The notes under the pieces: generated by a model
The model's database searches: none
Seen by the model: only the letters and a program-made list of their open reading frames with translations
Told to the model about the DNA's origin: nothing
Part shown: positions 3,746 to 56,992 of the stretch, piece by piece
Numbering within the stretch: the first letter of the stretch is position 1
How the letters are laid out: the number at the start of each line of letters is the position of its first letter
DNA from: an uncultured Halobacteriovorax sp.
GTDB lineage: Bacteria > Bdellovibrionota > Bacteriovoracia > Bacteriovoracales > Bacteriovoracaceae
Direction of reading: 5' to 3'
DNA length: 64,000 nt
NCBI GenBank assembly: GCA_913061265.1
Contig: CAJXVS010000006.1
Coordinates: 124,001-188,000 of the forward strand
Made by a program: the position numbers and the translations under genes

Positions 3746-4663
3746 TTATTTTAGCTTAAAGAAGCGCCCGAGAAGATCTGCTGCACAGACCCCATGATTG
3801 ATGATCCACTTACCAGTCTTTCCACAACCATTCTTTGAGTCCACAGGAAGCCCATGGCCCATTCCCTTTAGGATCACGGTCTCGACCACTGATCCTCTTT
3901 TTGAGTTGGAGTATGAAGTATGCAGCATCTTTGAATTATCGGTAATAACTGACCCTTTCTCGATTTGATGAATGGCGTTCCACTGCTCTTTTAACTCAGT
4001 GGCATTATCTGGAGAAACATAAGGATCTTCAGTTCCTTGTAGGATCATCACCTTTGGGTAATCCCCTCTGTGCCTATAAGCCGCTTTTACTAACCATTTC
4101 CATTCAGCTCCAGTTCTATCGATGGACTTCATGCACTTAAAAGCACCAAACACATCACTTGCACAACCAAAAGGAATCCCAGCGACAGTAGCGCCGGCCT
4201 TAAACATGTCCGGGTAAGTGGCGAGCATGACCGCGGCCATTGCTCCTCCGGCGGAGAGGCCCGCTATGAAGACTTTTTTCTTTGAAGCTAGGCCTTTAAC
4301 TTGAAGATAACGAATCATCTGGGCAATAGAGCCAGACTCCCCTCTGTTTCTTAAGAAGTCGAAGGGTGAGAACCAATTAAAACATGCTTGAGAATTATTG
4401 AATTTTGTCTGCTCAGGAATAAGAAGAAGGCTACCAGAGCTTTCTGCCAATTGGGCAAAGCCGGTTTCATTATCAATATCTTGAGCTCGCTGATTACATC
4501 CATGAAGAAGAACAATAAGGGGAGCATTTGGTTTAACGTTCTTTGGCGTATAGACGAACATACGAAGAAGGCCTTCATTGAGTCCAAAGTAAGGGATCTC
4601 TTTTGTACCTGCGATAGCTGAAATTGAAATGATGGCGCTGATAGCAATGATAAGGTTCTTCAT
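3746..4663 (-). CDS. Secreted esterase of the PHB depolymerase/LpqC-like alpha/beta-hydrolase family
   Basis: 305 residues with a signal peptide (about 1-18). The segment PLIVLLHGCNQRAQDID is the oxyanion-hole motif of extracellular poly(3-hydroxybutyrate) depolymerase-like esterases, and GLSAGGAM carries the nucleophile serine. QGTEDPYVSP and the late GMGHGLPVD supply the likely Asp and His. Length fits catalytic-domain-only members without a substrate-binding domain, so natural substrates could be polyesters or feruloyl-type esters. A GGAG Shine-Dalgarno site precedes ATG 4663. Confidence 0.9.
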   Translation of the reverse strand: MKNLIIAISAIISISAIAGTKEIPYFGLNEGLLRMFVYTPKNVKPNAPLIVLLHGCNQRAQDIDNETGFAQLAESSGSLLLIPEQTKFNNSQACFNWFSPFDFLRNRGESGSIAQMIRYLQVKGLASKKKVFIAGLSAGGAMAAVMLATYPDMFKAGATVAGIPFGCASDVFGAFKCMKSIDRTGAEWKWLVKAAYRHRGDYPKVMILQGTEDPYVSPDNATELKEQWNAIHQIEKGSVITDNSKMLHTSYSNSKRGSVVETVILKGMGHGLPVDSKNGCGKTGKWIINHGVCAADLLGRFFKLK

Positions 4664-4843: not shown

Positions 4844-4901
4844 AGATTCCCCTCGAATCTAATATAAGCGGCGCTTACCCAATGCTGGAGAAGCCCCGCC
4901 G
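4844..4901. other. Two adjacent hairpins after the micro-ORF chain
   Basis: AGATTC (4844-4849) pairs with GAATCT (4855-4860) over a five-base loop. CGGCGCTT (4869-4876) pairs with AAGC (4891-4894) and GCCG (4898-4901) with a small bulge. They follow the stop of the 24-codon ORF on the minus strand by about ten bases and could terminate or protect that transcript, although the T-run is weak. Confidence 0.35.
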
Positions 4902-4911
4902 TAAATAAAAA

Positions 4912-4986
4912 TTAAGCGACTGTGATCAATGCGATATAAAAGATAAACAAACAAAACAAAATGGTATCCTTGCCGTCGTTGTTCAT
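4912..4986 (-). CDS. 24-residue predicted membrane microprotein (third ORF of a coupled chain)
   Basis: ATG 4986 lies in ATGA overlapping the TGA of the preceding 57-codon ORF, with AAGGA six bases upstream. The product has a polar N-terminus MNNDGKDT and then one hydrophobic stretch long enough to span a membrane, ending in TVA. Single-helix proteins of this size act as subunits or inhibitors of larger membrane complexes in other bacteria; no such partner is visible here. The support is the stacked ATGA overlaps, the ribosome site and the hydrophobic composition. I recognise no homologue. Confidence 0.5.
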   Translation of the reverse strand: MNNDGKDTILFCLFIFYIALITVA

Positions 4987-5156
4987 GACCTATCCTTTTT
5001 TAAAAAACTAAAAGTAAAAACCCTGTCAAAAAAATCCAGAGCCCCTGTATGAGAAAGAAAGCTTGTAGGTCTTCTTGGTGGAAGGAAACTCCTATCTACC
5101 AACCAAGTCTTACTGAAAAATTCAGTATGGCTGCTTCTGTAATCCCTTGAGTTCAT
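4983..5156 (-). CDS. 57-residue hypothetical protein (second ORF of a coupled chain)
   Basis: I set the start at ATG 5156, which overlaps the TGA stop of the preceding ORF (ATGA) and has GGAGG five bases upstream; an in-frame ATG ten codons earlier lacks this. The product is basic and aromatic, with FLPPRRPTSF in the middle and a hydrophobic-aromatic C-terminal part (DFFDRVFTFSFLKK). The stop TGA again overlaps the next ATG. I recognise no family. Three consecutive ATGA/ribosome-site junctions by chance are unlikely. Confidence 0.45.
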   Translation of the reverse strand: MNSRDYRSSHTEFFSKTWLVDRSFLPPRRPTSFLSHTGALDFFDRVFTFSFLKKDRS

Positions 5157-5374
5157 CCTTTCCTCCCATGTAAAAGAGAGAGGCATATCTCTCTTTTTCT
5201 GTATCTTTCTCTATCGCTGCTTGAGCGAGCAAAGCGAGAAGGATTTAACGTCCACCTCCGTCCAAGAGGGAACCGGGACGAAGGTCCTCCCTCTCGCTCT
5301 GCCGTTTCAAAAGTATTGTCCAAAGAGGTAGTCCCTTCAGTGATTAAAAAATGTGTAACTAGTAGTGCCGCCAT
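5153..5374 (-). CDS. 73-residue hypothetical protein (first ORF of a coupled chain)
   Basis: ATG 5374 is preceded by GGGGAG with an eight-base spacer and by a TATACT -10 at 5396-5401. The phased TTGCGTAAGT repeats lie directly upstream. The product starts MAALLVTHFLITEG and then becomes Arg/Ser-rich and low in obvious fold signals, so it could be a leader peptide as well as a functional protein. It ends in TGA overlapping the next start. No homologue is recognised. Confidence 0.4.
   Translation of the reverse strand: MAALLVTHFLITEGTTSLDNTFETAEREGGPSSRFPLGRRWTLNPSRFARSSSDRERYRKREICLSLLHGRKG
5172..5199. terminator. Perfect hairpin with T-run on the plus strand
   Basis: AAAAGAGAG (5172-5180) pairs with CTCTCTTTT (5189-5197) across an eight-base loop and is followed by T on the plus strand. 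It looks like an intrinsic terminator for plus-strand transcription, yet it sits within the end of the 73-codon minus-strand ORF, just before the next ribosome site. It may instead modulate translation there. Confidence 0.35.
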
Positions 5375-5401
5375 AAGTTTGTCTCCCCGTTAATAAGTAT
5401 A

Positions 5402-5455
5402 TTACGTAAGTTTTGCGTAAGTGCAACAGCTTTTTGCGTACCTTTTGCGTAAGTA
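5402..5455. promoter_or_regulatory. Four phased direct repeats of TTGCGTAAGT
   Basis: Eleven-base units lie at 5402-5412, 5413-5423, 5434-5444 and 5445-5455 (consensus TTGCGTAAGTN), with start spacings of 11, 21 and 11 bases, close to helical turns. They lie immediately upstream of the -10 of the minus-strand micro-ORF chain and about 50 bases upstream of the plus-strand hydrolase. The same ten bases occur as an inverted pair around the uvrA promoter at 54038-54071. A shared regulator is inferred. Confidence 0.6.
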
Positions 5456-5503
5456 GAATAATTTTAGATACTTAAGGGGAGAATTAAGGCCATAATCCCC
5501 TTT

Positions 5504-6142
5504 ATGAAACTTCAAAGTGAACTGATTTACGCCCGCTCTGAGATCGATATCTCCCAGCAACCTAAGACTGACTTTAAGATCATGCTTGTCATGCATGGCT
5601 ATGGAGATTCATTAGTTCCTTACCGAATCTTTACTCAAGAAGTGAATATAACTAACTGCCATTACCTACTTTTAAATGCTCCTCTAGAATACTTTGGGGG
5701 CTATGCTTGGTATCACCTCCCTCCAGAAGATCCTAAAGAATCAATAGCTGCCCCTGTAAAATTAATCTTAGATGAAATTAATTTCCTTTTAGAAGAAGGC
5801 TTTAAGAAAGAAGACATCCTACTTTGTGGTTTCTCTCAAGGGGGCTGCATGGCGCTTTCGGCTGCCATGGCCTTTGGTGAAAAGCTTGGCGGTGTAATCG
5901 CCTTATCTCCTAAGACTTATCCTTTTATGCTGGATGATCTTACAAAAAGTTTTTTAGAGACTCCAACTTTTATAGCTCACGGTACAGAAGATTCAGTCAT
6001 CCCTTTTCAAGATGTAAACTCTTGGGCGAGCAATCTCCTTAAGTCTCACTCAAACTTAAGATTTGAGAAGTATTCCATGGGACATGAAATTGATATCGAT
6101 GAGATTCATGACCTAAGAGATTGGCTTAACGAGCAGCTCTAA
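5504..6142 (+). CDS. Phospholipase/carboxylesterase-family alpha/beta hydrolase
   Basis: 212 residues, no signal peptide, the usual size of cytoplasmic phospholipase/carboxylesterase (YpfH, EstB, acyl-protein thioesterase-like) enzymes. VMHGYGDS gives the oxyanion motif, LCGFSQGGCMAL the nucleophile serine, and HGTEDSVIPF the catalytic Asp. The late MGHEIDIDEI segment contains the catalytic His. The substrate is unknown. No Shine-Dalgarno site precedes ATG 5504; CATAAT ends seven bases upstream. Confidence 0.9.
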   Translation: MKLQSELIYARSEIDISQQPKTDFKIMLVMHGYGDSLVPYRIFTQEVNITNCHYLLLNAPLEYFGGYAWYHLPPEDPKESIAAPVKLILDEINFLLEEGFKKEDILLCGFSQGGCMALSAAMAFGEKLGGVIALSPKTYPFMLDDLTKSFLETPTFIAHGTEDSVIPFQDVNSWASNLLKSHSNLRFEKYSMGHEIDIDEIHDLRDWLNEQL

Positions 6143-54112: not shown

Positions 54113-56992
54113 GTGAAAGCTACCAATACTAAAAAGAGTAAAGTTAAAGAAATAAGCAGCATCCAAGTCATAGGTGCAAGAGAGCATAATTTAAAGAATA
54201 TTGACGTGGAGATCCCTAAGAAAAAACTTGTGGTGATCACCGGAGTTTCTGGTTCTGGAAAATCCTCTTTAGCTTTTGATACCATCTATGCTGAAGGTCA
54301 AAGACGCTATGTAGAGTCTCTCTCCTCGTATGCCCGTCAATTTCTCGGGCAAATGGAAAAGCCCAAATTTGATACCATCAGAGGACTGGCTCCCACTATT
54401 GCGATTGAACAAAAGTCAGCCTCAAAGAACCCTCGCTCCACTGTAGGAACCATAACAGAGATCTATGATTATCTAAGAGTTCTCTTCGCCCGTGTAGGAA
54501 CTCAGTACTGTCATATTTGTTCTAAAGAAGTAGGAAAAGGCACCGCTCAAAATATGGTGGAGCAGATCCTAAAGCTTCCTCAGGAAACTAAATTCTTATT
54601 AATGGCGCCTTTAGTTGAAAATCGAAAGGGTGAATTTAAGGACCTCTTAAAACAAATCAAGGCCGATGGTTTCTCGAGAGTGAGAATCGACGGAGTGGTT
54701 CAGCAGATTGGTGATATTCAATCTCTTGCTAAGAATAAAAAGCATAATCTTGAAGTGGTCGTAGATCGTTTAAAAGTAAAGAAAGAGCCCGCCTTTAAGA
54801 AAAGGCTCTTAGATAGTTTAGAGCTTTGTCTTAAAACCGGCGAAGGCCAGCTTATTGTTCATATTGAAAATCGTGAAGACATTAAAATGAGTGAAGAGCG
54901 CTCTTGCTGTGGTCATGCCTTCCCTGAATTAATCCCTCAGCTCTTTAGCTTTAACTCCCCTCACGGCATGTGCGAAAAATGTAATGGTATCGGCTCTGTT
55001 ATTTCTATCGATGAGAAGAAGCTAGTCGTAGACGAAAACGCCTCTATTTCCATGGGAGCTGTTCGCGCTTGGGATAATTACTTTGATAAAGAGGGAAATA
55101 AAAAGGACATGTCATGGGGACTCGCGCGCCTAAATGCTCTTGAAGCGGACTGGGGGCTAGATCTCTATAAACCATGGAAGAAGATCCCTAAGAAATTAAG
55201 AGAGAGAGTTCTTAATGGAAGTGATGATCCTAAGCATGAATTAAACCTCGTTTGGGAAGGAGATAAGGGCGAATATCAATGGAACGCTCAGTATGAAGGA
55301 CTGATCACCCGCCTTATGCGTCTTTATATGAAACATCAAACCCAAGGGCGAAAGTCATGGGTGGCCAAGTACACCTCAACTCTTCCTTGTGATACTTGTC
55401 AGGGTCAAAGACTAAAGCCTTCTGTTAATTCAATTCTGGTTAAGAAAAAATCAATCAATGATATAACCGCTATGAGCATCTCTGAATCCTTTAACTTCTT
55501 TAGTAAGTTAAAGCTTACGGGAAATAAAAAGATCATCACAGAAGAGCTCTTAAAAGAGATCACAACCAGGCTTGGCTTTCTTGTCAACGTGGGTCTTAAT
55601 TACTTATCTATGGATAGATCAGGGCCCACCCTCTCTGGAGGAGAGGCGCAAAGAATCAGGCTCGCCTCTCAGATTGGATCTGAACTAACAGGTGTTCTCT
55701 ATATTCTCGACGAGCCTAGCATCGGTCTTCACCAACGAGATAATATAAAACTCATCGATACCCTCTGCCATCTGCGAGATATTGGAAACTCTTTAATCGT
55801 CGTTGAGCATGATCAAGAAACCATGGAATCCGCGGATTGGATCTTAGACGTAGGTCCTGGCGCCGGCCGCCTAGGTGGTCAGATCATCGCCGAAGGAACT
55901 CCCGCTCAGTTAAAGAAAAACAAAAGATCTATCACAGGAAAATTCCTCGCGGGAAAAGAGCAAATTGAAATCCCAGAGGAGAGAAGAACCTCTTCAAAAG
56001 AGTGGATTGAAATCCTAGGAGCAAAAGCTAATAACCTTAAGAATGTTGATTGCAAGATCCCTATCGGATTATTCACTTGTGTCAGTGGTGTTTCTGGAGC
56101 GGGAAAATCCTCCCTCATCAATCAGATCTTATACCCAGCTCTTAGTAAGATGCTTCATAACACCGACATAGAAGTTGGCGAGCATAAAGAAATTAAGGGA
56201 CTCGCCAATATTGATAAGGTTATCAATATTGATCAAAAGCCCATTGGGAAAACCCCTAGAAGTAACCCTGCCACTTACACAAAGGTCTTTGATCTTATCA
56301 GAGACCTCTTCGCTATGACCCCTGAATCAAAAAGCCTCGGCTATAAAAAAGGACGATTTTCCTTTAACGTTAAAGGTGGTCGCTGCGAGGCCTGTGAAGG
56401 TGACGGACATATAAAAGTAGAGATGCATTTTCTAGCTGACGTTTTAGTTCCCTGCGAGGAGTGTAAAACAAAACGCTTTAACGAGGGAACTCTTCGCATT
56501 AAATTCAAGGATCACTCTATCGCCGACGTTCTCGATCTTTCAGTTGAACAAGCCAGAGTGCTTTTTGAAAACCAACCACAGATAAAAAAAGTCCTTGATA
56601 CTTTAATTGAAGTTGGCCTTGATTATATAAAGTTAGGTCAACCCGCCACTCACCTCTCTGGTGGAGAAGCGCAAAGAATCAAGCTAGCAAAAGAGCTCTC
56701 AAAAAGAGGAACCGGAAAGACCCTCTATATTCTAGATGAGCCAACTACTGGTCTTCACTTTCAAGATATAAGAAAACTCCTTGCCGTGCTTCAAAAGCTC
56801 ACAGATGCAGGAAATACTATTGTCGTCATCGAACATAACCTAGATGTAGTTAAGACCGCAGATTGGGTCATCGATCTAGGCCCTGAAGGTGGCTCTGGTG
56901 GTGGAGTCATCATCGCCAGTGGACCTCCAGAAAAGGTGGCATCGAGCAAGAAGAGCCCTACAGGGGCCTATTTGAAAGATATCTTAAAATAA
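54113..56992 (+). CDS. uvrA: UvrABC excinuclease ATPase subunit UvrA
   Basis: 959 residues from GTG 54113. First Walker A GVSGSGKSSLAF near 40, zinc module 1 (CCGHAFPELIPQLF...CEKCNG), first signature LSGGEAQRI near 507, second Walker A GVSGAGKSS near 658, zinc module 2 (CEACEGDG...CEECK), second signature LSGGEAQRIKLAKELS near 847 and LYILDEPTTGLHF. All ATPase and damage-sensor elements are intact. Acts in nucleotide excision repair with UvrB and UvrC. Promoter region carries a shared motif (54038-54071). Confidence 0.99.
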   Translation: MKATNTKKSKVKEISSIQVIGAREHNLKNIDVEIPKKKLVVITGVSGSGKSSLAFDTIYAEGQRRYVESLSSYARQFLGQMEKPKFDTIRGLAPTIAIEQKSASKNPRSTVGTITEIYDYLRVLFARVGTQYCHICSKEVGKGTAQNMVEQILKLPQETKFLLMAPLVENRKGEFKDLLKQIKADGFSRVRIDGVVQQIGDIQSLAKNKKHNLEVVVDRLKVKKEPAFKKRLLDSLELCLKTGEGQLIVHIENREDIKMSEERSCCGHAFPELIPQLFSFNSPHGMCEKCNGIGSVISIDEKKLVVDENASISMGAVRAWDNYFDKEGNKKDMSWGLARLNALEADWGLDLYKPWKKIPKKLRERVLNGSDDPKHELNLVWEGDKGEYQWNAQYEGLITRLMRLYMKHQTQGRKSWVAKYTSTLPCDTCQGQRLKPSVNSILVKKKSINDITAMSISESFNFFSKLKLTGNKKIITEELLKEITTRLGFLVNVGLNYLSMDRSGPTLSGGEAQRIRLASQIGSELTGVLYILDEPSIGLHQRDNIKLIDTLCHLRDIGNSLIVVEHDQETMESADWILDVGPGAGRLGGQIIAEGTPAQLKKNKRSITGKFLAGKEQIEIPEERRTSSKEWIEILGAKANNLKNVDCKIPIGLFTCVSGVSGAGKSSLINQILYPALSKMLHNTDIEVGEHKEIKGLANIDKVINIDQKPIGKTPRSNPATYTKVFDLIRDLFAMTPESKSLGYKKGRFSFNVKGGRCEACEGDGHIKVEMHFLADVLVPCEECKTKRFNEGTLRIKFKDHSIADVLDLSVEQARVLFENQPQIKKVLDTLIEVGLDYIKLGQPATHLSGGEAQRIKLAKELSKRGTGKTLYILDEPTTGLHFQDIRKLLAVLQKLTDAGNTIVVIEHNLDVVKTADWVIDLGPEGGSGGGVIIASGPPEKVASSKKSPTGAYLKDILK

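Follow-up and report, generated by a model that had tools for sequence, protein, structure and literature searches.

The window, as we term the whole 64,000-nt stretch of Halobacteriovorax DNA analysed here, carries a minus-strand locus that is best read, from its sequence and by analogy with known systems, as an SOS-induced mRNA in which a translationally coupled leader would gate the synthesis of a membrane peptide that brings growth or cell division to a halt. We give this reading an even chance of being correct.

The locus lies within an 840-bp gap that is bounded by genes for a PHB-type esterase (3746-4663) and a carboxylesterase-like protein (5504-6142); it consists of three consecutive minus-strand frames: ORF1 (73 codons; 5153..5374), a leader reading frame; ORF2 (57 codons, 75 in relatives; 4983..5156), an intermediate frame; and ORF3 (24 codons; 4912..4986). 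In the window copy, stop and start codons overlap as ATGA at both junctions, ORF1-ORF2 and ORF2-ORF3, and SD-like GGGGAG, GGAGG and AAGGA sequences precede ORF1, ORF2 and ORF3, respectively, with a spacing of 5 to 8 nt, confirming both the chain and the ribosome sites claimed by an earlier note on this DNA. Such a chain, scored as three stop/start-overlapping ORFs, each 20 codons or longer, on either strand, was matched by 4 of 4,000 dinucleotide shuffles of the gap. The codon usage of all three ORFs was unlike that of long genes. The GGAGG ahead of the MNSR start of ORF2 is kept in relatives; a start at an ATG in the hairpin loop, giving 67 codons, was dropped, as no ribosome site was present at a workable distance. 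The transcript probably ends at a predicted hairpin 3′ of ORF3 (4868..4900, minus strand), whose window copy lacks a long run of T; both relatives have hairpins of different sequence at the position after ORF3.

Homologous frames were found in the two further genus members sampled (G001 and G002), which supports a small-ORF transcription unit. The cassette was present in 3 of 3 sampled genus members, including the window genome, and in none of the 126 remaining genomes of the family. The downstream PHB esterase gene is kept in G002 and absent from this position in G001, and the upstream neighbour in both genomes differs from that in the window. A profile of ORF1 matched only the three genus members among 129 family genomes and detected no relatives beyond G001 and G002 in a wider genome-contig collection; searches of viral contigs (ORF2), phages (ORF1) and plasmids (ORF2) detected none. 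Family-wide matches to the ORF2 and ORF3 profiles (best E values, 1e-4 and 3e-3) were attributed to chance, those inspected being stop containing or inside other genes and having no LexA site nearby. For ORF1 to ORF3, Pfam and PHROGs yielded no family with an E value of 1 or less other than a single chance match at 0.13, and NCBIfam gave none at E ≤ 0.01; profile searches have little power for a query of 24 aa.

The repeats upstream of ORF1 are, by sequence, two tandem LexA operators. Their motif, CTTACGCANNNCTTACGCA, is directly repeated with a period of 11 bp. The four phased repeats described previously are present but group as two double sites. At 3 or fewer mismatches, the pattern TACGCAAAANNTACGCAAAA was found twice in the window versus 0.11 occurrences expected, and both operators are complete 19-bp sites. 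The distal operator, CTTACGCAAAAGGTACGCA (5435..5453, minus strand), has 2 mismatches to the motif in the window and 1 in both relatives, while the proximal operator, CTTACGCAAAACTTACGTA (5403..5421, minus strand), has 1 mismatch and is identical in all three genus members. Alignment with lexA, recA and uvrA promoters suggested a promoter at 5397..5425 (minus strand) composed of TTGCAC, a 16-nt spacer and TAATAT (or TATACT). The proximal operator overlaps this promoter, sitting between the −35 TTGCAC and the −10, an arrangement shared with the lexA and recA promoters and one in which a bound repressor would block RNA polymerase. As for the −10, the TATACT named in the earlier note is matched in quality by TAATAT, at a spacing of 16 from TTGCAC, on alignment with G001 and G002, whose −10 elements (TATTAT and TACTAT, respectively) come immediately after the proximal site. 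Directly upstream of the distal site, a stretch reading AAGTATC..(A)ATTATTCTA (window 5454-5475) is conserved in all three species and, in the opposite direction, resembles a weak divergent promoter (TTGCGT-16-GATACT).

At up to 2 mismatches to CTTACGCANNNCTTACGCA, the whole genome contained seven sites, while a reversed-pattern control gave 0. Two precede lexA-dinB (lexA being identified by NCBIfam TIGR00498), two precede the ORF1-3 locus, and one each precedes recA, an imuA-like gene and a further conserved short locus; two tandem sites 31 to 32 bp apart were seen only at lexA and the ORF1-3 locus. The ImuA-like gene, a weak NCBIfam match under its cut-off, precedes a gene of 478 aa that has no Pfam match and, after it, one for a DnaE-type polymerase. 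Because the same site precedes lexA-dinB, recA and the imuA-dnaE2 cassette of the same genome, control of the ORF1-3 locus by LexA and the SOS response, previously raised as a possibility, is well supported at the sequence level. A reading of the 11-bp repeats as sites for an OmpR-type activator was dropped after the same repeats were found at lexA and recA. The proposal of a regulator shared with uvrA was right in kind, with LexA as the probable regulator; the window uvrA (54113-56992) has a degenerate LexA site and an inverted half-site.

The same 11-bp direct repeat is the LexA site across the family (L041, L052, L050 and L141-L176), where, with genes identified by inspection of translations, it precedes lexA and recA, short S24/UmuD-like genes, genes resembling imuA and a uvrA; the sites at lexA, recA, umuD-like and uvrA genes include ones in other genera. 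In most of the lexA, recA and uvrA promoters, the site falls between a −35-like TTGA or TTGC and the −10. Searches of relatives with the gap also returned the repeat stretch alone, ahead of other genes; in G017 and G002 it precedes lexA, and in G017 a gene of the DNA polymerase IV type comes next. Two copies of the site on one contig of G001 (C10:45624 and C10:115631; L141 and L142) diverge from a UmuD/S24-like gene, with surroundings that are identical where compared. The LexA site of the imuA-like/dnaE cassette has an SRAP (SOS-associated peptidase) gene (L177:6083-6766) immediately upstream. At a second locus (L048:1502-1700, own genome C4:81683 onward; L146 and L147), a perfect LexA site is identical in the three genus members and is followed by a conserved stretch of ~150 nt that contains two hairpins whose pairing survives sequence changes, along with a short frame, MEVTMHTG...FKSE.REIRGPP, preceded by a good ribosome site; this locus is a candidate for another LexA-controlled RNA or RNA/peptide. 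In the account of Campoy (2005) cited in PMC8565304, LexA of Bdellovibrio bacteriovorus is reported to bind a TTAC-N3-GTAA palindrome, and the canonical SOS genes are reportedly not repressed by LexA. A direct-repeat LexA site over recA, lexA, imuA-like, umuD-like and uvrA genes contrasts with that case. No paper on LexA in Halobacteriovorax was found in the searchable literature, in which the sole paper naming LexA and Bacteriovorax together concerns the structure of DinG.

The earlier note had proposed an operon of three small proteins and a check for synonymous-biased change. That bias was detected for ORF3 and weakly for ORF2 but not for ORF1, which evolves as a structured RNA. Judged by its substitutions, ORF3 is under strong protein-level selection (overall pS 0.75-0.88 and pN 0.05-0.10, p = 4e-6; pS 0.75 and pN 0.08 for G001 versus G002; pS 0.87-0.88 and pN 0.05-0.10 versus the window copy). 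ORF1 had a pS of 0.05 and a pN of 0.04 between G001 and G002, showing no preference for silent changes, and its synonymous rate was about tenfold under that of the reference lexA, recA and imuA-like genes (pS 0.52-0.57 for the same pair); synonymous change amounted to 3/60 in ORF1 versus 76/146 in lexA (Fisher p = 1.5e-11). By this measure, with tenfold too few silent changes and no silent preference, what is conserved in ORF1 is its nucleotide sequence and not the encoded protein. Identity between G001 and G002 was mostly 0.93-1.00 from the operators to about +300, apart from one 30-nt window at 0.83, and was 0.57-0.77 in the upstream gene, 0.70 at a dip in mid-ORF2, 0.77-0.87 in ORF3, with changes mostly at third positions, and 0.3-0.5 after ORF3. 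The low divergence of ORF1 could partly reflect a recombination tract, which could mimic the pattern in one pair of genomes; yet the same functional blocks, namely, the operators, helix arms, hairpin and ORF2 start, are those conserved relative to the distant window copy.

The frames themselves were also retained. ORF1 and ORF2 are free of stops in the three species, and net length differences within the ORFs (33, 12, 24 and 21 nt, of which 12, 24 and 21 nt are in-frame indels of ORF2) are all multiples of 3; the 5′ untranslated region differs by 17 nt between species. The ORF2-ORF3 junction overlaps in all three species, written ATGA, TGATG or TAATG. These features suggest that the leader frames seem conserved for being translated and not for their product.

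Folding of the leader predicted a 15-bp helix between a 5′ arm, GCAGAGCGAGAGGGA (5288..5302, minus strand), and a 3′ arm, TCCTTCTCGCTTTGC (5229..5243, minus strand), with pair probabilities of 0.99-1.00, and a perfect hairpin, AAAAGAGAGATATGCCTCTCTCTTTT (5172..5197, minus strand), just upstream of the ORF2 ribosome site; over helix and hairpin together the values were 0.94-1.00. All 15 pairs of the helix are present in each of the three species, in a part of ORF1 whose amino acids are not conserved. Six pairs have changed, two on both sides and four on one side only, a covariation equalled by 51 of 500 shuffles in a comparison of three species, two of them close, with two compensatory pairs. 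The hairpin has identical nucleotides over nine codons in all three species. The leader folded better than shuffles (z scores of −3.8, −2.5 and −2.5), and in each species the predicted accessibility of the ribosome sites fell from ORF1 (0.55-0.61) to ORF2 (0.35-0.53) to ORF3 (0.18-0.24), the last being within the lowest 6 to 17% of windows. In the window the hairpin is terminator-like in both directions. Over 5172-5205, this hairpin at the end of ORF1 makes a better terminator when read on the plus strand, with its TTTTTCTG tail, than when read on the minus, and so could end an antisense RNA.

The product of ORF3, MNNDGKDTILFCLFIFYIALITVA, has a polar start followed by a very hydrophobic helix up to the C-terminal end (mean hydropathy of residues 8 to 24, 2.5-2.7), in agreement with the single hydrophobic helix described earlier; it is conserved and is the only one of the three products with clear protein-level selection. 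The core GKDTILFC-F-FYIAL is near-invariant over saturated synonymous sites, and the helix has no charged or strongly amphipathic face. ORF3 resembles type I toxins in size and helix (<60 aa, hydrophobic, single helix) and, by prediction, in having a structured mRNA with a sequestered toxin ribosome site. It also resembles SidA-type peptides, which are LexA-controlled, single-pass inner membrane peptides of ~30 aa, its location being predicted.

The preferred mechanism combines these elements. RecA-driven cleavage of LexA would release a promoter repressed via two tandem operators, and the first ~300 nt of the resulting mRNA would fold into the conserved structure while also carrying two translatable frames. 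A ribosome would enter at the accessible ORF1 site, translate through the helix and hairpin and, by way of the stop/start overlaps, probably reinitiate first on ORF2 and next on ORF3, the site of which would itself be buried. The 24-aa peptide would then insert into the inner membrane and most likely act on it, holding back growth or division until repair, much as a type I toxin would, with hok/mok-style coupling and tisB/dinQ-style SOS control; an antisense antitoxin is possible. A pure RNA would need no such frames, and the simplest account of them, we infer, is a relay in which translating ORF1 and ORF2 opens the ORF3 site and supplies it with ribosomes. The retained frames weigh against the conserved RNA being the main product, a regulatory RNA induced by the SOS response with ORF3 as a secondary passenger. 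The leader RNA is the most conserved part of the locus and the genus has the second LexA-controlled, RNA-like locus described above, but the clearest protein-level selection is on ORF3, and no Rfam family was found in the window; we regard this explanation as improbable. Scarcely more probable is an operon of three effector proteins. The frames and overlaps kept in three species with in-frame indels, the dN/dS of 0.36-0.49 for ORF2 and the conserved C-terminal residues of ORF1 would suit such an operon, but those invariant C-terminal codons coincide with the perfect RNA hairpin. Furthermore, ORF1 shows no codon-position signal versus the window copy (21, 28 and 28 changes at the three positions) and only 44 to 47% identity to it, and the AlphaFold model of ORF2 (pLDDT 57) has no confident fold.

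A more serious competitor, though one to which we give clearly less weight than to the toxin-like reading, is a checkpoint in which ORF3 binds a divisome membrane protein of the FtsW or FtsN type and blocks septation, with the leader only tuning the dose. SidA of Caulobacter is a 29-aa inner membrane divisome inhibitor acting on FtsW (PMC4211646), to which a 24-aa single membrane helix under LexA can be compared; the near-invariant core fits a specific protein partner, and no face of the helix is charged or strongly amphipathic. An elaborately structured leader, however, is more typical of type I toxins. Against a toxin stand the lack of the charged strip of TisB (PMC8309996) and the consensus promoter scans, which detected no conserved antisense promoter. 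Two operators and a guarded leader have been reported for dinQ and tisB, respectively, and we therefore lean toward ORF3 being a membrane-acting, type I toxin-like growth arrest peptide, a conclusion about as apt to hold as to fail. An antisense RNA was not found, and the locus is assigned to neither the type I toxins nor the SidA family. That it represents a new SOS effector locus of the Bdellovibrionota lineage, with two regulatory reading frames in a two-step coupling relay, a covarying leader, a new 24-aa family and no antisense antitoxin, is put forward tentatively.

Much is known of membrane micropeptides induced by the SOS response in enterobacteria, Caulobacter and Gram-positive bacteria; no report from the Halobacteriovorax-like lineage was found in searchable papers. 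The proposed mode of action resembles that of hok/mok, tisB, dinQ or sidA, although the peptide has no relative by sequence that we found. In hok/mok/sok of plasmid R1, translation of the toxin frame is coupled to that of a leader frame overlapping it, within an mRNA that is highly structured, an arrangement that the coupling proposed here would share. The hok gene is not under SOS control, is accompanied by antisense Sok and encodes ~50 aa, whereas the ORF3 locus is, by its sequence, SOS controlled, encodes 24 aa and has no antisense RNA that we found. With sidA, the likeness lies in a LexA-controlled inner membrane peptide of comparable size (location predicted for ORF3) and in the operator, since alphaproteobacterial LexA sites (GTTC-N7-GTTC) are direct repeats that share the 11-bp period of CTTACGCANNNCTTACGCA; we know of no structured multiframe leader for sidA. 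The dinQ/agrB locus of E. coli also has two LexA operators over the promoter, a gap of ~820 bp and short frames before or around a single-helix inner membrane peptide (PMC3567139). No sequence relation to it was found, and mRNA processing activates dinQ while the agrB antisense RNA restrains it, whereas the ORF3 locus has a chain of three overlapping frames. The tisB/istR-1 locus of E. coli resembles it in its LexA-controlled transcript, upstream frame (tisA) and structured leader (PMC7708055, PMC11264685) and in a buried ribosome site, the tisB product being a membrane peptide of 29 aa versus 24 aa here (PMC8309996). TisB is a membrane-acting type I toxin with a charged strip (PMC8309996) that ORF3, which has no database match, does not have; two LexA sites are present here and no antitoxin RNA was found, and translation of ORF3 appears to depend on overlapping frames while that of tisB depends on a standby site. 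The conserved upstream frame tisA is without a known role (PMC11264685), and the ORF1-3 locus, as a compact case of leader frames seemingly conserved for translation, poses the same question.
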